Shown: one piece after another, positions 5,731 through 29,184 of the stretch
Layout of the letters: every line of letters begins with the position of its first letter
Numbering within the stretch: the first letter of the stretch is position 1
Assembly: GCA_000992395.1 (NCBI GenBank)
Contig: LBUD01000008.1
Location: 1,622-36,365, forward strand
DNA length: 34,744 bases
DNA from: Parcubacteria group bacterium GW2011_GWA2_38_13
GTDB taxonomy: Bacteria > Patescibacteriota > Patescibacteriia > Buchananbacterales > GWA2-38-13
Direction of reading: 5' to 3'
Program-made: the position numbers and the translations under genes
Notes under the pieces: model-generated
Told to the model about the DNA's origin: nothing
The model's input: the letters and a program-made list of their open reading frames with translations, nothing else
Database searches by the model: none

Positions 5731-5780
5731 CCATCTTTTCTTTTTGGTCAATGTGTGATAATTTTAATACATTGTTTATT

Positions 5781-5856
5781 TAGTATAAAGTATTTAGAAT
5801 TAAGTATCAAGTATGTTTAAAATATTAATTCTCTATACCATATACTAAATACTATT
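5781..5856. repeat. Inverted pair of degenerate 7-nt word arrays (AGTATAA type), no gene inside
   Basis: Left AGTATAA AGTATTT AGAATTA AGTATCA AGTATG; right ATACCAT ATACTAA ATACTAT. Confidence 0.75.
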
Positions 5857-5860
5857 TTTT

Positions 5861-13125: not shown

Positions 13126-13214
13126 CAGTAACCGGTAATCAGTAATCGGTAATTAAGAAATTGTTATTCCTGATTCCTGATTACTTGTTACTTATTACAC
13201 ATTGCTAGTTACCT
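13126..13214. repeat. Inverted pair of degenerate 7-nt word arrays (GTAATCA type)
   Basis: Left GTAACCG GTAATCA GTAATCG GTAATTA; right ATTCCTG ATTCCTG ATTACTT GTTACTT ATTACAC ATTGCTA GTTACCT. Confidence 0.8.
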
Positions 13215-16403: not shown

Positions 16404-16538
16404 CTCGAAGCAAGAAATTCGAAATTCGAAACAAATTCCAAATTACAAAATTGTAAAATTTAAATATATTTTTGAAAATTAGAATTTTGAATTTCGATAT
16501 TGTTTCGGATTTCGATATTCGAATTTCGGATTTAAAAT
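16404..16538. repeat. Inverted pair of degenerate 7-nt word arrays (AAATTCG type)
   Basis: Left AAATTCG AAATTCG AAACA AATTCC AAATTAC; right AATTTTG AATTTCG ATATTGT TTCGG ATTTCG ATATTCG AATTTCG. Confidence 0.75.
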
Positions 16539-17270: not shown

Positions 17271-17909
17271 ATGCTGGGAAATAATACGCAAAAAAAAATC
17301 AATGAAATAGATATGAATGATATTCCGGAGCCAAAGCAGGAAAATTCACTTGTGAAAGAAGCGTTTATTTTTCTCTGGGAAATAATCAAGGTGGTTGTCA
17401 TATCGCTTGCCGTCATTCTTCCCATACGATATTTTCTTATTCAGCCGTTTTATGTAAAGGGTGCATCCATGGAGCCCAATTTTCATGACCATGAGTATCT
17501 TATCGTGGATCAGATCAGCTACCGGTTTGGCGAGCCAACGCGCGGGGATGTGGTTGTTTTTCGGGCGCCTCCGCAACCGTATGATTTTTTTATAAAACGC
17601 CTGATCGGCTTGCCGGGCGAAACTATAAAAATTCATGATGGAAAGATTTTTATTTTTAATAGCGCGAATCCTCAGGGAGAAGAATTAAAAGAATCATATT
17701 TGTCTGCTGATTTGAAAAGCGTCGGATCAATTACTGAAGCGCTTGATCAGGACGAATATTTTCTCATGGGCGACAATAGGGAAGAAAGTATGGATTCAAG
17801 GTCGTTTGGACCGGTGAAAAGAAAGGCAATGGTTGGAAAAGTTTTTTTACGCGGATGGCCGCTGGATAAATTTTCTTTGTATCTCGACCCTCCGCAGTAT
17901 GGATTTTAG
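17271..17909 (+). CDS. lepB: Signal peptidase I
   Basis: GASMEPNFHDHEYLIVDQISYRFGEPTRGDVVVFRAP, FIKRLIGLPGETI, YFLMGDNREESMDSRSFG. Confidence 0.95.
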   Translation: MLGNNTQKKINEIDMNDIPEPKQENSLVKEAFIFLWEIIKVVVISLAVILPIRYFLIQPFYVKGASMEPNFHDHEYLIVDQISYRFGEPTRGDVVVFRAPPQPYDFFIKRLIGLPGETIKIHDGKIFIFNSANPQGEELKESYLSADLKSVGSITEALDQDEYFLMGDNREESMDSRSFGPVKRKAMVGKVFLRGWPLDKFSLYLDPPQYGF

Positions 17910-17910
17910 A

Positions 17911-18001
17911 ATTAAGTTCAAAATTCAAAGTGCAAAGTTAAAAGTTTTATGAAATTTTATAACTTTGAACTTTGAACTTTTAACTTTTAACTTTTAACTT
18001 G
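17911..18001. repeat. Inverted pair of degenerate 7-nt word arrays (AAGTTCA / AACTTTG type)
   Basis: Left AAGTTCA AAATTCA AAGTGCA AAGTTAA AAGTTTT; right AACTTTG AACTTTG AACTTTT AACTTTT AACTTTT AACTTG. Confidence 0.85.
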
Positions 18002-18007
18002 TATATT

Positions 18008-19363
18008 ATGCCCCGAAGAAAAAAAATTTTTTCAAACGCGCCAAAAATGGAAATACAATCAGGCGCCCAGGCACGGCAGAATAAAAATGTCCCTCATATT
18101 CTAAAAGGATTTAAGGACATTATGCCGAATGACCAAAAATATTGGCAGACATTAAGCCGGGTGGTTGAAAAAACCGCCGGTCAATACGGATTTCAGAAAA
18201 TTGAAACGCCGATTATTGAAGACACTTCTTTATTTACGCGCTCCGTCGGAAAGGAAACAGATATTGTATCAAAAGAAATGTATAGTTTTGTGGATCAGGG
18301 AGGCGATAATCTCAGCTTGCGGCCCGAGGGAACCGCGTCGGTTGCCCGCGCTTTCATAGAGCATGGGATGCTGAATCTTCCTCAGCCCGTGAAAATGTAT
18401 TATGAAGGGCCGATGTTTCGCCATGAAAATCCACAGGCAGGCAGATATCGCGGATTGCACCAATTTGGGTTTGAAGTGCTTGGCAGCGCTGCACCGGTTG
18501 TTGACGCCCAGCTTATTCTTATTGCATCTAATATTTGCCAGGAAATCGGGCTGAAACCCGGAAGCTACAGTATACAAATAAATAGTATTGGCTGTCCGCA
18601 GTGCAGGGCTGAATATAAAAAAGAGCTTGTGCTGTATTACAAAGCGAAGAGAAAATATCTTTGCGATTCATGCAAAAAAAGGCTTGTGAAAAATCCATTG
18701 CGCCTATTGGACTGCAAGGTTCCCGGATGCCAGTCGCTGAAGCCCGATGCTCCGCAGATTTTGGATTGGCTTGATGATTCTTGCAAGACGCATTTTATGG
18801 GAGTGGTGGAATATTTGGACGCGCTTGAAGTGTCGTATGTTTTAAATCCCCAGCTTGTGCGAGGGCTTGATTATTATACGCGGACGGTATTTGAAATCGT
18901 CGCGCAGGGAAAAGAAGAAATGGCGCAATCAGCAATCGGCGCCGGCGGCAGATACGATAATCTTATTGAAACGCTTGGAGGAAATCCTACTCCGGCGACA
19001 GGATTCGCGTTCGGGTTTGAGCGTATGATTATGCATATGAAAGAGCAGGAAGTGAAGCTGAAAGAAAAAAGAACGCCGGATATATTTTTGGCGCAGATAG
19101 GACAGCAGGCAAAAGTGCAGGCGTTGAAACTGTATGAACGGCTGAGAAAGGAAGGAATTTTAGTATATGAAAATTTTTCCAAAGACAGTTTGAAGGCGCA
19201 ATTGGAAATATCCAATAAGCTGAAAGCAAAATATACTCTTATTGTCGGGCAGAAAGAAGTTTTGGACGGAACTGTGCTTTTGCGCGATATGGATGCCGGG
19301 GTTCAGGAAATTATAAATTATGAAAAAGTTACCATAGAGATGAAAAAGAAATTGCAACAGTAA
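18008..19363 (+). CDS. hisS: Histidine--tRNA ligase
   Basis: LKGFKDIMPNDQKYW, LRPEGTASVARAFIEH, MYYEGPMFRHENPQAGRYRGLHQFGFEVLGS, RGLDYYTRTVFE, GAGGRYDNL. Start at ATG 18008 preferred over TTG 17999. Confidence 0.97.
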   Translation: MPRRKKIFSNAPKMEIQSGAQARQNKNVPHILKGFKDIMPNDQKYWQTLSRVVEKTAGQYGFQKIETPIIEDTSLFTRSVGKETDIVSKEMYSFVDQGGDNLSLRPEGTASVARAFIEHGMLNLPQPVKMYYEGPMFRHENPQAGRYRGLHQFGFEVLGSAAPVVDAQLILIASNICQEIGLKPGSYSIQINSIGCPQCRAEYKKELVLYYKAKRKYLCDSCKKRLVKNPLRLLDCKVPGCQSLKPDAPQILDWLDDSCKTHFMGVVEYLDALEVSYVLNPQLVRGLDYYTRTVFEIVAQGKEEMAQSAIGAGGRYDNLIETLGGNPTPATGFAFGFERMIMHMKEQEVKLKEKRTPDIFLAQIGQQAKVQALKLYERLRKEGILVYENFSKDSLKAQLEISNKLKAKYTLIVGQKEVLDGTVLLRDMDAGVQEIINYEKVTIEMKKKLQQ

Positions 19364-19408: not shown

Positions 19409-19443
19409 TCGGGAGTCTTTAAAGAGGCTCCCTTTTTTTATTC
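19409..19443 (+). terminator. Terminator after hisS
   Basis: GGGAGtCtttaaagaGgCTCCC followed by TTTTTTTATT. Confidence 0.75.
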
Positions 19444-19636
19444 CTCCCTCTCCCTGGACGGGAGAGGGATTGAGGGTGAGGGTGAACAGATAAAATTTTT
19501 CCCTTTCCGAAAACGCCTGCCAGCCTTGGGTTGGGAGAGGGTGGCCTCAAGGCCGGGTGAGGCAAACCAGGCGGAATATTTTACCCCCTCTTCAGGTGGC
19601 TATGCTGTTTGTAAGGCTCCGTAGCCTCACTCCCGA

Positions 19637-19758
19637 CCCAGACTGTCCGAGAACGAATTTCTGTAGGGGCGACTTTTGTGGTCGCCCGATGATTTAGAGA
19701 AATTCTGGGCGGGCACAAGACCCGCCCCTACATTTTATAAATTCTCGTACAGTCTGGG
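19637..19758. repeat. Palindromic dispersed element copy B (same family as 8742-8865)
   Basis: CCCAGACTGTCCGAGAACGAATTTCTGTAGGGGCGAC...GGGCGGGCACAAGACCCGCCCCTAC...GTACAGTCTGGG. Confidence 0.8.
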
Positions 19759-19820
19759 AGGAATATAAAAAAATAAATTTGTATGTGCGCATTCGCAGTG
19801 CGCTATTCGTATGCAAAAAA

Positions 19821-19974
19821 AGGCAGACGATGTTTCGTCTGCCTTATGTTATATTTTGTACGGGCGATTAATAATCGCCCGTACATTATTACAAAAAAAT
19901 AAAAAAAGGCAGTCCTCGCGTTTGCGGGACTGCCTATATTGTTTTTGTAGGGGCGAATAGTATTCGCCCGTTAC
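19821..19974. repeat. Cluster of four palindromes at a convergent gene boundary
   Basis: AGGCAGACGA-tgtt-TCGTCTGCCT; TGTACGGGCGATTA-a-TAATCGCCCGTACA; AGGCAGTCC...GGGACTGCCT; GGGCGAATA...TATTCGCCC. Confidence 0.8.
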
Positions 19975-19989
19975 TTTTTTACAAAAGAA

Positions 19990-22206
19990 CTATTCGGCTT
20001 TGATTGTACACCCAAGAAAATCAGGTGTTGGATCAAGCCCTGGTTGGTTGAAGGGCTCCTTGGGAGCCTCTCCGCCAAGGAAAAGGAAATTCAATATAGC
20101 AATTGGGTCGGAAATATTTATATTTCCATCATCATCCGAATCGGCCGCGTCTTTACAGATTCCTTGTGTATCTCCAAGGAATAGCCAGCCAAGAATGGCA
20201 ATCGGATCGGTGATATTCACATCTCCATCCTGATTTGCATCTCCGCGCCTGAATTCGTATTCAATTTCGCGCAAGATAATTTTTTGCGTAATCCCGTCAA
20301 AAGGATCGCGCACGGTTACGGTGTATTGATAGGCGCCAAGCGCGAGATTTAATTCAACTCGCGGCTGAACGTCAATCACGCCGTCTTTATTTTCCCAAAT
20401 AAATGACAACGAGTCATCGTTTGGGTCAGTGGAATTTGTCGCGTCCAAAGCTATTGCAGTGGACTCTCCTTGTGCCAGAATGGCGAGCAAATCTTCGTCT
20501 TCAATTAAAACAATTGGCGCTACGTTATCATGAAACGGGTCTTGCCAAAAGCTTATGTCGGAAATGGCAACCGTAGATGCGTCAGTATTGGCAATAAAGC
20601 CAAAAATAAGATCAACGGTTTTTCCGCGATACTCCTGAACATTGATAAGCCCGCTGTCGCTTGGGCCCTTGTCTGTGACTGCGTTGTCCAGCCATATTGG
20701 CGTTTCAATTTCGTCTGATTTTATGGAAAGCATAAGCTGTGAATTTCCGATTTCCGAAAATTCATACGTGAAGCTTATGTAATCCCATTGCAAATCAATG
20801 GTCTGTGTGAGCGTGAACGTCGTATCCGGCGCAACATCGCCTCCGCCACCTTCGGCCACAGCCTTTTTCAGAAGCGCTTTTGTGTCGCTGGGAAGTTCAC
20901 ACGATCCGAAACATTCACCTGTTGAAAGTATTATCCCGGTAATTTTTTTCTCCGGGGTTTTATCATCCACACAGGCAAGTCCGAAAATTCGGTAGTTTAG
21001 GCGATCGCATGAATCAATGTGGCATATGTATGATGTGCTGACGGGTCCGTTTGGAGGCAGGCATGTGAAATCCATAGGATTTGCGCCGGTTTCAAACAAA
21101 ACCGATGCATTGAAACCAATGTTTTTATCCACCTGATCCAGATTGCATCCATTGCCGAAGAGCAGGGGATTTTCTGCCAAGGTTGCGTGGTTTTGGTACC
21201 AAAGGTACACGTCGTGGTAGAAATTCAGCAGATTTCTTTCAGAGGAAGGAACGTCAATCCATGCATTCACAAAATATGCCTTGTTGTCGGCTGAACCGCT
21301 GATAAGGTCTGCGTAAACGCCGGTTTTCCGTAACCTGAGAGTTTGATTTCCCAAATCGTTTTTTACCACATCCGGCGGATCCCAAAGTGTGAGATGCGTT
21401 GGTACGACTTTGTCGCCAACCTTTGGGCGAAGAGGAAGTGTCATTTCACAGACATTGGCCATCAAAAACGCGCCCAAGCTGTGGCCCATGAAATGCACGG
21501 GCTTGTTGTAATCCAAAGACAAAACCTTTTGCAGTTCTTTGGCGCACAGCCTTGATTGGGGCAGGATATTCATTGTGGCTTGTGCCAAATGAATAGTGCC
21601 TGCTTTTTCGAACCAATCCCATGCAAGGATGTTGACGGTTTCGCCCATGCGCGCGTAGAGTACGCGTGCGGTTTCAACCATCCATCCGGACGAAGGCTCG
21701 CCGCCGTTCCACCCGTGCGTCATCACGATCGTGCCAAAATCCTTATTGAAGAGTTGCGCCTGAACGTCAGGTTGCATCTCCACAAATTGCACTTTGGCTG
21801 GGTGGTAGATTTGAAGTTGGGTGGGGGATACACACACAGGCCTTATGATTCGTCCGAATATTCCAGTATGTTCTCCAAATGGTCCAGGCCAAGTACCCTC
21901 CCAACTGTTCCAAGATATGGCAATTAATCCATCAATTGACATTACAATGTTCGGAAGGAATTGAGTTCCTTTAGTATACTCATTAACACGGGAAACATTG
22001 CCTATCGGCTTGTCATCTATGCTAAATAGTTGAGTATATATTTCTGAATACTCACCGCGTTCGCCATTTTCTATCCAAACGATGCCGTAGCCGATATTCT
22101 TTCTTGAAGAAATTTTTGGTGGGCTATCAAAATATTGGCCTTCATCGCTAATATCTATTTCAATGTCAGCTTGTAATTTATTGCCGTTATAATCCAGTCT
22201 TTGCAT
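19990..22206 (-). CDS. C-terminal part of a secreted lipase-like alpha/beta hydrolase with C-terminal dockerin type I repeats
   Basis: VHFMGHSLGAFLMANV (GxSxG), TIVMTHGWNGG; C-terminus GDANQDGDVNITDPIAILGWLFLGD...DSDDDGNINISDPIAILNFLFLGG is a dockerin-type Ca-binding pair. Frame continues upstream toward 22337 as RNPPEHVFSRKPDISVLNDGTFRIVYARFNKAPGDNNRLIV. Confidence 0.85.
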   Translation of the reverse strand: MQRLDYNGNKLQADIEIDISDEGQYFDSPPKISSRKNIGYGIVWIENGERGEYSEIYTQLFSIDDKPIGNVSRVNEYTKGTQFLPNIVMSIDGLIAISWNSWEGTWPGPFGEHTGIFGRIIRPVCVSPTQLQIYHPAKVQFVEMQPDVQAQLFNKDFGTIVMTHGWNGGEPSSGWMVETARVLYARMGETVNILAWDWFEKAGTIHLAQATMNILPQSRLCAKELQKVLSLDYNKPVHFMGHSLGAFLMANVCEMTLPLRPKVGDKVVPTHLTLWDPPDVVKNDLGNQTLRLRKTGVYADLISGSADNKAYFVNAWIDVPSSERNLLNFYHDVYLWYQNHATLAENPLLFGNGCNLDQVDKNIGFNASVLFETGANPMDFTCLPPNGPVSTSYICHIDSCDRLNYRIFGLACVDDKTPEKKITGIILSTGECFGSCELPSDTKALLKKAVAEGGGGDVAPDTTFTLTQTIDLQWDYISFTYEFSEIGNSQLMLSIKSDEIETPIWLDNAVTDKGPSDSGLINVQEYRGKTVDLIFGFIANTDASTVAISDISFWQDPFHDNVAPIVLIEDEDLLAILAQGESTAIALDATNSTDPNDDSLSFIWENKDGVIDVQPRVELNLALGAYQYTVTVRDPFDGITQKIILREIEYEFRRGDANQDGDVNITDPIAILGWLFLGDTQGICKDAADSDDDGNINISDPIAILNFLFLGGEAPKEPFNQPGLDPTPDFLGCTIKAE

Positions 22207-23080: not shown

Positions 23081-23155
23081 TTGACACGTGACTTTTCCCC
23101 CTCACCCCAACCCTCTCCCGCACGGGGCGAGGGAGAATTAAGAGGAAACTCCTTT

Positions 23156-23235
23156 GGTTGAAGTAACTGGTAACCAGTAACGGGTAACGAGTAAACAGCT
23201 GTTTGAATTAGGAATCAGGAATCAGGAATTATGGA
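23156..23235. repeat. Degenerate 7-nt word array (GTAACGG / GGAATCA type)
   Basis: GTAACTG GTAACCA GTAACGG GTAACGA GTAAACA ... GGAATCA GGAATCA GGAATTA. Confidence 0.7.
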
Positions 23236-23327
23236 ATCTTTTTTCAATTTCTGAATTTCATAATTTCATCCATTTCTGTAATTATTCAATTGTCAAAGTG
23301 CTTTTTATTATTGATTGTTGATACGCA

Positions 23328-23468: not shown

Positions 23469-23524
23469 AGGCAGTCAACAATTTAATACATTATAATATT
23501 TTAGCGAAAAAGTCAAATGCTTGC

Positions 23525-23636
23525 TATCAGGAATCAGTAACTAGTAATCAGTAATCAGGATTAGGAATTAAATATTTATTAGCCCTAGTTACTGATTACT
23601 GGTTACTGATTCCTAAGTTACTATTTACCGATTACT
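23525..23636. repeat. Inverted pair of degenerate 7-nt word arrays (GTAATCA type)
   Basis: Left GGAATCA GTAACTA GTAATCA GTAATCA; right GTTACTG ATTACTG GTTACTG ATTCCTA. Confidence 0.8.
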
Positions 23637-23796
23637 AAATCCCTAAACATCCTTGACTTGTCCACAGAAAGATGTTATGGTTTGCTTGTATAATTATTAA
23701 GAATTATTTATAATATATGTATATAGAAGAGGTGTTGATAAATACCGATTCTTTACATTATAAATAATTTAACACACCCAAAGGAGGTGTATCATA

Positions 23797-24114: not shown

Positions 24115-24134
24115 ATAGAAAATTGTTTTTTAGA

Positions 24135-24259
24135 TTGTCATTCCCCCGACACTTCGGGGAAATCCATTACCCTTGTGTCATCCTGAGTGAAGCGAAGGAT
24201 CCCATACTATAGCGCAAAGATCCGGGGGATTCTTCGGCCATTGGCCTCAGAATGACAAT
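24135..24259. repeat. TGTCAT...ATGACA dispersed intergenic repeat, copy 2
   Basis: TTGTCATTCCCCCG...TGTCATCCTGAGTGAAGCGAAGGATCCC...CTCAGAATGACAA; ends are inverted (TTGTCATTC/GAATGACAA). Confidence 0.7.
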
Positions 24260-24307
24260 TATTGGAAAGTCTGAAGATAAAATTATATTTGTTATTCTAT
24301 ATAGATT

Positions 24308-24766
24308 ATGCCAGAAAGTATTTTAAAAAAAATTGAAGAGGAGATGATCGTCGCGATGAAAGGCAAAAAGGAAGTTGAACTTTCCACATTGAGAATGATG
24401 AAAACCGCCATTAAAAACGCGGAGATTGCAAAGAGGCCTGAAAAACTTACTGAAGATGATGAAATGAAAGTTTTAAAAAGCGAAGTGAAAAAACACCAGG
24501 ATTCCATTGATTTATTTCAAAAAGGAAACCGGCCGGATTTAGTAAAAAAGGAGGAAGAAGAATTAAAAATCGTAAAAAAATATCTTCCGCAAGATTTGGG
24601 CGATGATGAATTAAAAAAAATTATTCAAAATGTTTTAAAAAAATTAGGAGACGATACCCAGAATTTCGGAAAAGTTATGGGAGCCGTGATGAAGGAGGTT
24701 GCCGGCAAGGCGGATGGGAATAGGGTGGCTGAATTACTGAAGAAAATAGTTCAAAGTTCAAAGTGA
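24308..24766 (+). CDS. GatB/YqeY domain-containing protein
   Basis: KGKKEVELSTLRMMKTAIKNAEI...DEMKVLKSEVKKHQDSIDLFQKGNRPDLVKKEEEELKIVKKYLPQ...GKVMGAVMKEVAGKADGNRV. Confidence 0.95.
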   Translation: MPESILKKIEEEMIVAMKGKKEVELSTLRMMKTAIKNAEIAKRPEKLTEDDEMKVLKSEVKKHQDSIDLFQKGNRPDLVKKEEEELKIVKKYLPQDLGDDELKKIIQNVLKKLGDDTQNFGKVMGAVMKEVAGKADGNRVAELLKKIVQSSK

Positions 24767-24800
24767 AAAGTTCAAAGTCGCAGTTTAAAGTTTAAAAGTT
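24748..24800. repeat. Left 7-nt word array (AGTTCAA type) flanking the four-helix-bundle gene
   Basis: AGTTCAA AGTTCAA AGTGAAA AGTTCAA AGTCGC AGTTTAA AGTTTAA AAGTT. Confidence 0.85.
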
Positions 24801-25172
24801 ATGGACAACCAAGAGTTTAAAAAGAAGTTAATTATTCGTTCATTTAATTTAGCTCGAAATGTTATTAAACTTGCCGATACATTTCCCCAGAAACGATCTG
24901 CCTGGATAATTATTGATCAATTGCTTCGCGCGATTACTTCCATTGGAGCTAATATTATAGAAGCTCAAGCCGCCAGCTCAAGAAAAGACTTCATCAATTT
25001 TCTCAACCATGCCCTGAAAAGTGGAAATGAAACAAAATTTTGGCTGGCTTTATCAAAAGATTTAGATGAAAAATTAATTTCTGAAATAGAAAAATATTTA
25101 AAAGAAACCGATGAAATAGTCAAAATTCTCGGTTCGGCGATAGCCACCCTTAAAGGAAAAAATAAACTTTGA
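24801..25172 (+). CDS. Four helix bundle protein (S23 / Avd-like family)
   Basis: MDNQEFKKKLIIRSFNLARNVIKLADTFPQKRSAWIIIDQLLRAITSIGANIIEAQAASSRKDFINFLNHALKSGNETKFWL; spacing is typical of 23S rRNA intervening-sequence (S23) family proteins. Confidence 0.88.
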   Translation: MDNQEFKKKLIIRSFNLARNVIKLADTFPQKRSAWIIIDQLLRAITSIGANIIEAQAASSRKDFINFLNHALKSGNETKFWLALSKDLDEKLISEIEKYLKETDEIVKILGSAIATLKGKNKL

Positions 25173-25215
25173 ATTTTGAACTGTAATTTTGAACTTTGCA
25201 CTTTGAACTTTTAAC
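25165..25215. repeat. Right 7-nt word array (ACTTTGA type), inverted relative to 24748-24800
   Basis: ACTTTGA ATTTTGA ACTGTA ATTTTGA ACTTTGC ACTTTGA ACTTTTA ACT. Confidence 0.85.
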
Positions 25216-25244
25216 TATTGGTATAAAATATCGCTTGTCAAGCC

Positions 25245-28200
25245 ATGAAAAACAAAAAACCCACCCTTTCAAAACAATTTAAATTTTATAATAGCCCCAT
25301 TTTCGTAGTGCTTATATTTACAATACTTATGGCGGCTTTTTTTATTATCTCTTACGAAGCATCGGCGCAGATACGAGAATCTGTCACAAACGGATTTGGA
25401 TATGCGTCAAGCATGGGCCTTGGAGCCCGCGATTTGCGTACTATCATATTCGCGATAATAAATGTTTTGTTGGGATTTTTATCAATTGTCGCCGTACTTA
25501 TCATTATGTACGGCGGTTTTGTTTGGATGACATCTAAAGGAGACCCGAAACGGGTTGATGATGCAAAAAATATTTTGAAAAATGCGGTTATTGGGCTAGT
25601 GATAATTTTTCTGGCGTTTTCAATTGTGCAGTTTGTCTTCAGGTTTTTATTAGGAGCCGTGACTCCTCCAGGAGCTGGAAACGCACCTCCTCCGCCGGGC
25701 GGATGCGTGAATTGTAGCGCCTTAGGGGGTGGAATTATTGAAACAGTATTTCCTGCAAATGCTGCCCGCGACGTTCCGCGCGATACTATGATTTTTGTTA
25801 CTTTCAAAGAAGTCATCCAGACCGATACAATAATTCGGGGCGGTGGCGTGAGTGGTGATCTTATGGCTGGCGAGAATAATGTTCAAATATCTTATACTGA
25901 TCCGGTGACCAAGCTGCCGGTTGAGCTTGGGAGCGCTGATGTTGTGGCTTCATCCGGTGATAATAAGACATTTTCATTTCGTCCGGACAAATATTTGGGC
26001 GATGGAAAAAATAATATAATATATAGCGTACGGCTTGGAAAAGATATTTTGAAAGAAGGCGTGGATATTGTGGCACCGTTAGGATTTAATGATCCTGCAT
26101 TTCAAGGACCAATAAATTATTATAAATGGTGGTTTGAGGTTGGGACAAGGCTTGATCTTATCCCTCCAAAAATTAGTAATGTTGCACCGGATCCGGAAGT
26201 TACGGGGATTGCGGGAAAAGATAATTATTCGCCAGTGGCACCGGTTGCTTCATTTGCGACAATTACCGTGACGAAAGTTCCGCAGACGTATGTAGCTCCA
26301 GTTCTTCAGGGTACTGTTGATATACTATCCGGATCGGCTACCATAATTGGTACAGTAACAGAGACGCCAAAATTTGCAGGAAAATCGAACGTGAAGATTT
26401 GCTTAACGGGTGCAGCCAATCAATTTTCTATTACTCAGGTTGCCGCAGGATCGGCGAATTGCGCAGGCGTCGCGCCGGCAGTACCACTGGATTGTTTAAA
26501 CGCAACAACGCCATTAGTTGAAACCTCAATAATAGGATGCGGATTGTCCGTGAATTTTAATGAAAGTCCGGCAATTGGCAATCAATTTATTTTTTCCGTA
26601 ACAGCCGCAATTCCAGCAGACACATTACAGGTAGCAAATACCACATATACATTTGTATTAGCCGCGCCGGCAGGAAACCAAATTTTAGCCGGAGGTGGTA
26701 TAAATGGAACTGTTACAAATATTATTAATAAAATATCTTCGGTTGCCGAATCGCCTAACGTGAATGCCGAGGCGGTTGTAGGATTTGCGAATCGGATAAA
26801 GTTTGTGGCAGCTATTAAAGGAGTGTCCGGTGACTCTATCCAAATTTCTTCAAGCGCGGTCAGTGGCGATTGGATAAATCTCCCATCCCCAATTAATCTA
26901 AGCGGCGGGGTAGATGCATTAATGGGAAGAAGTATTGTTGAAATTCCCGATGAATCGCGCGATGTTATAATAAAAATTAATTTTTCAGAACCTATGTTTC
27001 CGCCAAAAATCGGCGGCGTGGTTGCAACGCAAGGTAACAATCCTGATTCAAGAGGAATGGGTCAATTGCTCGCAGGAGATTTTAGTGCCATAGAAGTATT
27101 TGCAGATCTTAATAATAATTTTGTTTCCGGCGCTAACCCGGAACCCATTGAACATGTAGCGGGTACGTGGAGAATTTCAAATAATTATAAAACAGCGGAA
27201 TTCATATCAAATTTAAGCTGTGGAATATGTCCGGATGGTCTTACTCCATGCAATAACGATACGGAATGCGGCGGCGGTGCTTGCAGTGTTGTAAAAAATT
27301 CTTGCGGTGATATTAAGAAATGTCTTCCGGTAAAAGGCGATGTCACGCATTATATTGTTCGGGTAAATACCGCCAATCTTATTAATACATGCGCAGGCTC
27401 CAATGATAATTGCAAAGACGAAAGATTTAATATTTGCGGTGCTGATAATGTTTGCGAAGACGCGGGCGGAATAAATTATCCAAAAGCAAGGGAGCCAATA
27501 GACGGAGTAGTTGATGCGGCGGCGAATTCTATGGACGGCAACAGGAATGATAACACTCAAGGACCGTTACCCGCTCCAAACACTTTTTATATTGATGTGC
27601 CAACTCTGATAAATCCTGCGCAGGGTGATAGCTATCAATGGGAATTTAATATTAATAAAACCATTGACATGACTCCTCCGGAAATTGAAGCCCGCGGGCC
27701 AGACCAGGACCAGGTGGTTTCGCCAATCTATGTGCCAAGCGCGCAATTTAATAAGCGCATGATGATGTCAACATTTAAACCCGACAATAGTTATCCCGAC
27801 GGATTATGCAATTGTGCTGTTGATGCCGATTGTGTCAGCGCAACGGACTCAAGAGATGAATATTGTGACAATACTTTTAAGGTTTGCAGAAGAAAAGATA
27901 ATGCCGAGTCGTTTTGCAGATACGATTCGCAATGCAAAAGGCCGGCATTAAAATGCAGGAATCAGGAGTATGTCACGCTAATTGATTCGTTAAAAAGAAC
28001 CGGGTATTGGATAGTGGGAGAAGATATTGATACAAATGGTGACAGTTTTGCTGATAAATCAATTATGCGCATGAATCAGACGGGCTTTATTGAAAATGCG
28101 CCTTATCATATAGATATCGGATCCGGGTTGAGAGATTACCATCAGAATTGTTTTATGCCGGGTAAGGGACCAGGATGTAATCCAACTTCCGATTTGCCGT

Positions 28201-28274
28201 TTTGTTGTTATGGCGTGCCAACAGCCCCGCTTGCAAATGGCGATTCGCCTTGCCTCCCTGCTACGAAGTCGTAA
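25245..28274 (+). CDS. Large surface protein: VirB2/TrbC pilin-like two-TM N-terminus fused to Ig-like (Big_5-like) extracellular domains
   Basis: GLGARDLRTIIFAIINVLLGFLSIVAVLIIMYGGFVWMTSKGDPKRVDDAKNILKNAVIGLVIIFLAFSIVQFVF then ETVFPANAARDVPRDTMIFVTFKEVI. Confidence 0.85.
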   Translation: MKNKKPTLSKQFKFYNSPIFVVLIFTILMAAFFIISYEASAQIRESVTNGFGYASSMGLGARDLRTIIFAIINVLLGFLSIVAVLIIMYGGFVWMTSKGDPKRVDDAKNILKNAVIGLVIIFLAFSIVQFVFRFLLGAVTPPGAGNAPPPPGGCVNCSALGGGIIETVFPANAARDVPRDTMIFVTFKEVIQTDTIIRGGGVSGDLMAGENNVQISYTDPVTKLPVELGSADVVASSGDNKTFSFRPDKYLGDGKNNIIYSVRLGKDILKEGVDIVAPLGFNDPAFQGPINYYKWWFEVGTRLDLIPPKISNVAPDPEVTGIAGKDNYSPVAPVASFATITVTKVPQTYVAPVLQGTVDILSGSATIIGTVTETPKFAGKSNVKICLTGAANQFSITQVAAGSANCAGVAPAVPLDCLNATTPLVETSIIGCGLSVNFNESPAIGNQFIFSVTAAIPADTLQVANTTYTFVLAAPAGNQILAGGGINGTVTNIINKISSVAESPNVNAEAVVGFANRIKFVAAIKGVSGDSIQISSSAVSGDWINLPSPINLSGGVDALMGRSIVEIPDESRDVIIKINFSEPMFPPKIGGVVATQGNNPDSRGMGQLLAGDFSAIEVFADLNNNFVSGANPEPIEHVAGTWRISNNYKTAEFISNLSCGICPDGLTPCNNDTECGGGACSVVKNSCGDIKKCLPVKGDVTHYIVRVNTANLINTCAGSNDNCKDERFNICGADNVCEDAGGINYPKAREPIDGVVDAAANSMDGNRNDNTQGPLPAPNTFYIDVPTLINPAQGDSYQWEFNINKTIDMTPPEIEARGPDQDQVVSPIYVPSAQFNKRMMMSTFKPDNSYPDGLCNCAVDADCVSATDSRDEYCDNTFKVCRRKDNAESFCRYDSQCKRPALKCRNQEYVTLIDSLKRTGYWIVGEDIDTNGDSFADKSIMRMNQTGFIENAPYHIDIGSGLRDYHQNCFMPGKGPGCNPTSDLPFCCYGVPTAPLANGDSPCLPATKS

Positions 28275-28284
28275 AGCAATCAGC

Positions 28285-28326
28285 CCCATGTGTCCTATTA
28301 GTCTTATGCAACCTATATGTCCTATC
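28285..28326. repeat. 9-nt-type word array (GTCCTAT words) running into the start of the next ORF
   Basis: TGTCCTATTAGTCTTATGCAACCTATATGTCCTATC. Confidence 0.65.
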
Positions 28327-29033
28327 AAGAATTGAAGTCCTACCGGCAGGCGATGGCGATTCAGGATTACACGGTTGAATTCTGCAAAATATATGTCAGT
28401 AAATTTTCAAGAACCACCGACCAGATGATTCAGGCGGCGCGCAGCGGAAAACAGAATATCGTTGAGGGCTGTTCCGTTTCAAAAACATCCCCGCAAACAG
28501 AATTAAAATTGATCGGGGTGGCAAGGGGATCGCTGGAAGAACTTTTGGAAGATTACAAGGATTTTTTGCGGCAGAAAGGGTTGGAAATTTGGAGAAAAGA
28601 CGACCCGAGGGCGGTTGAAGTGAGAAATTTAGCGTATAGGCCGGATATGACTGATAGGGCTGATAAGTCGGATATGTCTGATAAGCCTTATAGGGCCGGT
28701 GAGCCGGATAGGACTGATATGTCGAATAGGGCGGATAAGACTGATAGGGCGGATAAGGCTTGCACGACCTATACGTCTTATAAGTCCTATGAGTCCTATC
28801 AATATTATTTGAAAAATCCTGAAAGCGCAGGAAACGCGATGATAGTTCTCATTAATCAAACAAATTATTTATTAGATCAGCAAATGAAAGCCGTGAGAAA
28901 ACAAATGGAAGAAAAGGGAATTTCAAGCTTTTCCCATCAAGAAAAATTGCGCAGGATTTTAGAAGACAGGAAAAAGAAAAATGAAGAGTTCGATAAGTGG
29001 TTGAAAACCGTTGGACAAAATAAGTCAGAATAA
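28317..29033 (+). CDS. Four helix bundle protein with C-terminal suffix domain, interrupted in frame by a 9-nt repeat array
   Basis: RTTDQMIQAARSGKQNIVEGCSVSKTSPQTELKLIGVARGSLEELLEDYKDFLRQ (S23-like) ... NPESAGNAMIVLINQTNYLLDQQMKAV (suffix). Confidence 0.85.
   Translation: MSYQELKSYRQAMAIQDYTVEFCKIYVSKFSRTTDQMIQAARSGKQNIVEGCSVSKTSPQTELKLIGVARGSLEELLEDYKDFLRQKGLEIWRKDDPRAVEVRNLAYRPDMTDRADKSDMSDKPYRAGEPDRTDMSNRADKTDRADKACTTYTSYKSYESYQYYLKNPESAGNAMIVLINQTNYLLDQQMKAVRKQMEEKGISSFSHQEKLRRILEDRKKKNEEFDKWLKTVGQNKSE
28650..28803. repeat. In-frame 9-nt tandem array, left-type then inverted right-type units, inside the four-helix-bundle gene
   Basis: GATAGGGCT GATAAGTCG GATATGTCT GATAAGCCT TATAGGGCC GGTGAGCCG GATAGGACT GATATGTCG AATAGGGCG GATAAGACT GATAGGGCG GATAAGGCT TGCACGACC TATACGTCT TATAAGTCC TATGAGTCC TATC. 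Confidence 0.9.
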
Positions 29034-29184
29034 GCTGGATAGGTCTGATAGGACAGATAAGTCTGAATAAGACGAATAGGTCTGGTAAGTCAGAATAAGT
29101 TGGATAAGCCTTATAAATCGCATATGTCCTATAGGACTTATAAGACATATAGGTCTGATAAGTCTAATAAGACCCATAAGTCCC
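29032..29184. repeat. Word array downstream of the second four-helix-bundle gene (same vocabulary)
   Basis: GGATAGGTCTGATAGGACAGATAAGTCTGAATAAGACGAATAGGTCTGGTAAGTCAGAATAAG...ATGTCCTATAGGACTTATAAGACATATAGG. Confidence 0.85.

Follow-up and report, generated by a model that had tools for sequence, protein, structure and literature searches.

In a genome of the Parcubacteria group bacterium GW2011_GWA2_38_13, a single gene for a four-helix-bundle (FHB) protein is enclosed between inverted arrays of a degenerate 7-nt word, and comparison with its relatives suggests that gene and arrays together constitute an undescribed kind of mobile element, which may also explain many of the word runs scattered through FHB-carrying genomes. 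In our best explanation the unit probably represents a class of small mobile elements with a very wide distribution, each member of which would consist of one FHB gene between inverted arrays of an element-specific 7-, 8- or 9-nt word, and we lean towards regarding it as mobile in the manner of REPIN/RAYT, with an Avd-like protein at its core.

The unit lies at positions 24745–25219 of the window, by which we mean the whole 34,744-nt stretch of DNA that was analysed. Its left edge, an array of AGTTCAA-type 7-nt words (24745–24800, forward strand), gives the upstream host gene yqeY (24308–24766, forward strand; PF09424) its last codons and stop, the yqeY 3′ end reading ATA GTT CAA AGT TCA AAG TGA within the array. 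The FHB gene (24801–25172, forward strand; 123 aa; TIGR02436/PF05635, an Avd-like four-helix bundle) starts where the left array ends, and its TGA stop falls within ACTTTGA, the first word of the right edge (25163–25219, reverse strand), an array that is the reverse complement of the left one. Beyond it follows a downstream host gene (25245–28274, forward strand) with a T4SS-pilin-like N-terminus and an Ig-like domain (PF18895, PF13205). The initial annotation had read this anatomy correctly, including the end of yqeY in the left array, the extent of the FHB gene and its stop in the right-hand word. FHB is the sole ORF of the unit; no second ORF, and neither an HuH (Y1) nor any other transposase, was found in it. 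It is placed between yqeY and the pilin-like gene and not inside an rRNA gene, with no rRNA match nearby.

The inverted 7-nt arrays reported around the gene are real. Tandem Repeats Finder gives period 7 on both sides (AGTTCAA, 7.1 copies, at 24748–24796; AACTTTG, 7.6 copies, at 25165–25216), and a repeat search of the window returned an inverted pair, 24745–24802 and 25162–25219, that is 58 nt long and 83% complementary. Lag-7 matches number 33 on the left, where dinucleotide shuffles average 14.7, and 36 on the right, where they average 16.1 (p ≤ 2e-4 for each), both arrays standing above every shuffle, and the pairing score of the two arms, 36, exceeds the maximum of 20 reached in 2,000 shuffles.

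The window protein is a member of TIGR02436/PF05635 (four helix bundle, 23S_rRNA_IVP), with scores of 96.7 bits against a curated cut-off of 24 and 79.3 bits against one of 33.8. Its structural model (pLDDT 95.5) matched the S23-family crystal structures 2RLD and 2GSC in Foldseek and, less strongly, Avd from the diversity-generating retroelement (DGR) of a Bordetella phage (4DWL, TM 0.73/0.81, probability 1.00, E 0.058), and there was a further match to the DGR ribonucleoprotein 8UB7. These matches uphold the proposed kinship with Avd as a relation of fold, the sequence identity of the two being about 18%. Across 163 proteins, some of them only about 20% identical, the residues Q40, R43, S47, N51, E54 and E77 are conserved at 98–100%, and dN/dS values of 0.03–0.27 in 11 pairs indicate that the FHB protein is under purifying selection. 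We take the solved relatives of the protein to be pentamers, and we know of no catalytic motif for FHB.

Periodic inverted flanks were present at nearly all FHB genes examined. TIGR02436 occurs in 41 of 55 relatives, and the relatives sample comprised 94 FHB genes of the source genome and its class-level relatives. Around these genes lag-7 matching is 0.41 upstream and 0.38 downstream and drops to a background of 0.27 within 60–80 nt; it is 0.29 at the edges of yqeY, and in ordinary intergenic DNA 0.305 in FHB-rich and 0.271 in FHB-less genomes. In this comparison, which the initial annotation had named as a test of its reading, the flanks are thus strongly periodic above intergenic background. 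The upstream arm scores a mean of 20.0 against its own downstream arm, compared with 9.7 against the arms of other elements and 9.6 at yqeY, and the periods of the two arms (7, 8 or 9) are equal in 52 of the 59 elements in which both are clearly periodic, where 29 would be expected. That the ends are set by a word, with no one fixed terminal repeat, had been suggested from the window alone and agrees with these results, as the word is element-specific and an element's own arms pair while those of others do not. On the strand entering the gene the words are C-poor (A.38, T.32, G.22, C.09).

The same arrangement is found far from the source lineage. A profile scan of named genomes yielded at least 580 relatives, of which the best 80 were analysed, a set biased to one FHB subgroup by the closer-set alignment that served as query. 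These 80 span Bacteroidota, Bacillota, Chloroflexota, Acidobacteriota, Proteobacteria, Spirochaetota, Verrucomicrobiota, CPR lineages and ANME-1 archaea, and the 57 of them outside CPR have lag-7 values of 0.393/0.421 and an arm score of 19.5 against 9.0. In the phylum Cyanobacteriota (n = 28) the corresponding values are 0.368/0.421 and 21.6 against 9.6, and periodic inverted flanks were also seen at 31 FHB genes in ten named genomes. Plasmid copies of FHB are mostly from Nostocales; none was found in phage records, and none of 20 loci lies inside rRNA.

Word and period are particular to each element, and the word varies together with the FHB protein. Arm similarity between elements stays at a background of about 7.7 up to 50% protein identity and reaches 10.3, 14.0 and 16.0 at identities of 60–70%, 70–80% and above 80%. 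Taken over all pairs, word and protein show no significant Mantel correlation (rho 0.02), since the signal is confined to identities above about 55%; the case for covariation rests on the stepwise rise and on an independent pattern/protein search. A family of mainly 8-nt words, TAGCTTAT/TAGCTTCT, recurs at unrelated loci in several CPR lineages, and among 192 genomes its arrays were found in 17 of the 19 that have a close FHB of the matching type, in 7 of the 24 where the FHB is intermediate and in 11 of the 149 that have neither.

Comparison of loci points to movement of the unit. Among pairs of similar FHBs (at least 60% identity), 204 of 232 have no common neighbour gene, and the finding of same-word FHBs at unrelated loci answers the earlier question of whether the units are always syntenic: they are not. 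The source genome contains a second copy (L008) of the window element (L005), with an internally deleted FHB gene and unrelated neighbour genes, and the 221-nt alignment of the two stops at the outer edge of the right array. These comparisons make the arrays the shared ends of the unit.

Empty sites in close relatives, which the initial annotation had proposed to look for, were found at the sdhA–sdhB junction of Bacteroides, which is either empty or differently occupied. Among 30 such junctions 24 are empty (54–69 nt), four are occupied (496–534 nt) and one is unreadable. The four occupied and two of the empty species are 95–99.6% identical in sdhA and 94–99% in sdhB, and the occupying elements differ in both protein and word; L304 and L300, for example, are 99.6% identical in sdhA, but their elements are only 71% identical. 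This fixed site thus shows gain, loss or replacement of the unit, and allelic exchange or array-mediated recombination of the sdh region could explain part of this turnover. Empty and occupied junctions are too diverged inside the gap to place the ends or any target duplication, and no transposition event, intermediate or target duplication was seen directly. One Bacteroides-genus genome (L314) has a 167-nt sdhA–sdhB junction without an FHB gene, possibly a remnant or a gene-less version.

FHB elements at sdhA–sdhB were also noted in many Bacteroidota and in one verrucomicrobial genome (L251, L236, L223, L228, L250, L207, L229), and other intra-operon sites are likewise reused, namely fadB–fadA (L245, L248, L255) and leuA–leuB (L220, L233); all six gene names are our reading of the neighbouring proteins. 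At a Flavobacterium locus (L297:1180-2700), two identical FHB copies and several nested, truncated FHB starts have ATTACTA arrays between them, a pattern suggestive of repeated recombination or copying of the arrays. Two multi-copy cases were set aside as evidence of mobility. An identical FHB pair in genome G450 is uninformative because the whole stretch was duplicated, the compared 3.2-kb stretches being 99.9% identical throughout. Genome G515, of the cyanobacterial phylum, has about 12 copies (L358–L370) of a TAACTGAYGTTACGCA-ended transposon-like unit containing an FHB element, and this high-copy family was rejected as proof of FHB transposition: the terminal inverted repeats of its units are of TAACTGAYGTTACGCA type and lie beyond the arrays, which means that another transposon system moved the units. 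A second insert with inverted ends, CCTGAGTTCGG...CCGAACTGAGG, and with heptad arrays of its own splits the FHB gene in most of the G515 copies.

Array pairs without a gene go along with FHB genes and, in the sampled relatives, scale with FHB number. In 40–80 kb stretches from each of 20 genomes, the density of 7/8-nt arrays correlates with FHB number (Spearman 0.85, p 2e-6, no phylogenetic correction), control periods have no such relation (0.30, p 0.2), and no 7/8-nt array was found in 440 kb from seven FHB-less genomes. An inverted partner lies within 150 nt of 31 of 76 arrays, a few of which are part of FHB elements, against 5 at random positions. The best-matching FHB arm is in the array's own genome for 20 of 107 gene-less arrays, where about 5 would be expected, a count that leaves out two arrays belonging to element L107; for the majority of gene-less arrays no FHB sampled from the same genome has a matching word, the FHB sets being incomplete.

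The source genome (assembly of 1.04 Mb, 82.7% complete) has nine FHB genes, mostly framed by inverted arrays and each with a different word, among them GGTAATC, ATTACGA, AAAGTTC and TAAATCC. Elsewhere in the window lie at least six comparable arrays or array pairs that have no gene; they had been overlooked in the initial annotation, as had the other FHB genes of the genome and a second FHB gene in the window, with 9-nt-period arrays. An inverted AAAGTTC pair at 17896–18017 is of the word family of the window unit, scoring 28 to the L005 arms against 19.3 for random arms (p 0.085). Two further pairs have a word in common with FHB element L003, one of GGTAATC/CAGTAAT at 13126–13213 (24 against 12.0, p < 0.005) and one at 23517–23650 (26 and 24 against 12.9 and 10.2), and a GAAATTC pair at 16407–16533 has one in common with L007 (23 against 14.8). 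An AAGTATT-type pair at 5770–5860 has no word match to a known FHB of the source genome, and arrays of AGTAACC and GAATCAG types lie at 23162–23251. The second FHB unit (L009; 28285–29182, forward strand; arm score 18) has an FHB gene at 28317–29033 with a TIGR04258-like suffix; its 9-nt-period arrays lie inside the gene (28636–28799) and behind it (29014–29182), and the stretch before it, 28285–28316, resembles the inverted complement of its 9-nt words. The middle of the L009 FHB is encoded by an in-frame 9-nt-period array, giving the repetitive stretch DMTDRADKSDMSDKPYRAGEPDRTDMSNRADK. Intergenic repeat-like stretches that are not heptads were also noted in the window at 19440–19990, 23085–23160 and 24120–24260; they consist of CCCTCTCCC/GGGAGAGGG runs, GGGCGA...TCGCCC hairpins and CTGAGTGAAGCGAAGGATC or GAATGAC-like repeats.

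FHB elements sit tightly between genes, often in operons (sdhA|sdhB, fadB|fadA, leuA|leuB), and 111 of 141 are co-directional with both neighbours and 4 opposed, a ratio that looks extreme but has to be read against the 232 and 35 of ordinary genes. Such placement would suit a transcript-level intervening sequence, in which the arrays fold the unit into a long stem within the operon mRNA and RNase III excises it, as in rRNA intervening sequences (IVSs), with the FHB protein perhaps binding the stem and the unit spreading only passively with neighbouring DNA. When folded as RNA, the window unit does have its arms as one closing stem (z = -7.5), and the Coxiella IVS, also with heptamers, is excised by RNase III (PMC4990558). 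The arm mismatches on the transcribed strand, however, show no G·U excess (123 G·U against 169 A·C-type), and a selected RNA stem is therefore unsupported and was rejected, DNA-level pairing or recognition being the simpler reading. As excision from transcripts would also leave unexplained the covariation of word and protein, the tie between gene-less arrays and FHB number, and the similar units at unrelated loci, we consider it unlikely. That the FHB protein is instead a host regulator, with the arrays as its binding sites, the distant ones its regulon and its own ones serving autoregulation, seems doubtful to us. Its purifying selection, the word specificity and the arrays directly before start codons would all fit, and a regulator was proposed for the TAACTGA repeats (PMC4679880). 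What does not fit is that orthologous sites whose surroundings are nearly identical may have the element, lack it or hold a different one, that inverted arms lie on both sides with homology ending at the array, and that the FHBs of a single genome, differing in word, can number 12 or more.

Short tandem repeats are known to arise by replication slippage, and heptad arrays might form in this way at hairpins, where FHB genes merely survive; a polymerase-footprint idea for heptamers, quoted in PMC4692102, is in keeping with such a passive association. We nonetheless judge it very unlikely in view of the FHB-less genomes with zero 7/8-nt arrays, a correlation limited to periods 7/8, an FHB subtype that predicts the word family, and arms that co-vary in word and period. 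A retroelement-like origin, in which the Avd-like protein and a reverse transcriptase acting in trans copy the unit through RNA, is highly improbable. It draws on the fold match to Avd (4DWL) and the DGR ribonucleoprotein (8UB7), four-helix bundles of the same fold despite the low sequence identity, and on the co-direction of the units with transcription, but it is unsupported because no reverse transcriptase was found, RVT_1 having no match in the 82.7% complete source genome, and the unit has no second ORF. Of the "mobile or retro-type unit" of the initial annotation, the first half is thus sustained by turnover and unrelated loci, and the second is not, given the missing reverse transcriptase and G·U excess.

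The mobile element that we prefer is similar to REPIN/RAYT systems (PMC3116915) in that a gene is flanked by repeats, a gene family is tied to its own repeat family, and gene-less inverted pairs able to form hairpins are dispersed; it differs in having a four-helix bundle where those have an HuH (Y1) transposase, and degenerate tandem arrays of a variable 7–9 nt word where those have a fixed palindrome. Like insertion sequences and MITEs, the units have inverted ends and are short and mobile by comparison, but they lack a transposase ORF and their ends vary in sequence and period between elements. Binding, catalysis, the intermediate and the way in which the unit moves we infer as follows. The FHB protein may bind its own word where a strand or hairpin lies exposed and, with host enzymes, copy or move the array-bracketed DNA, both its own unit and gene-less pairs in trans, a role akin to the one proposed for RAYT transposases towards REPINs. 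Co-directional placement would let FHB be expressed from the host transcript.

S23-type 23S rRNA IVSs, as in Coxiella burnetii (PMC4990558), have the same protein family and inverted stem-forming ends; unlike the units described here they lie in rRNA, were studied as RNase III-excised RNA and were described singly, without a general word-array rule, and the Coxiella ORF is reported to be in decay, in contrast to the purifying selection seen on the FHBs of this study. The parallel with them drawn initially is backed by GACAGAT heptamers that adjoin the Coxiella S23p ORF upstream (PMC4990558), and the same ORF can occur in rRNA insertions of CPR (PMC11270868). IVSs with an S23 ORF may be members that landed in rRNA genes, and they are probably a special case of the FHB element.

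Heptamer repeats have a literature of their own, in which we found no link between FHB and heptad arrays except the remark on Coxiella GACAGAT (bioRxiv and most subscription papers lay outside the search). The STRR sequences of cyanobacteria are similar intergenic heptad tandem repeats. Intergenic arrays of GGGAATC in Xanthomonas, with 70–75 inverted pairs, and of GGGGATT in Nostoc (PMC4692102), and of TAACTGA in Beggiatoaceae (PMC4679880), were described without an associated gene. All are 7-nt tandem arrays like those reported here, but were described as repeats alone. A search of 274 genomes from a single proteobacterial class found no GGGAATC array.

TIGR02436, with at least 580 relatives in one scan, is an abundant family of proteins without a known function, and bacterial heptamer repeats have been reported time and again with no cause assigned. 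The association of FHB genes with arrays connects the two: it points to the arrays as the likely substrate of the protein and to the protein as the likely maker of the repeats, and S23-type rRNA intervening sequences are recast as probable special cases. In its widest form, for which we see the case as evenly balanced, this would be a domain-spanning class of mobile DNA with self-made, private 7–9 nt word ends and a cognate FHB protein for which no catalytic motif is known, which mobilises gene-less palindromes and is the common cause of the cyanobacterial, Xanthomonas, Beggiatoaceae and Bacteroidota heptamer repeats and of S23-type rRNA intervening sequences. The association predicts that each FHB protein should prefer its own word, and a protein family able to read a 7–9 nt word that differs between elements would also merit interest as a sequence-recognition system in its own right.
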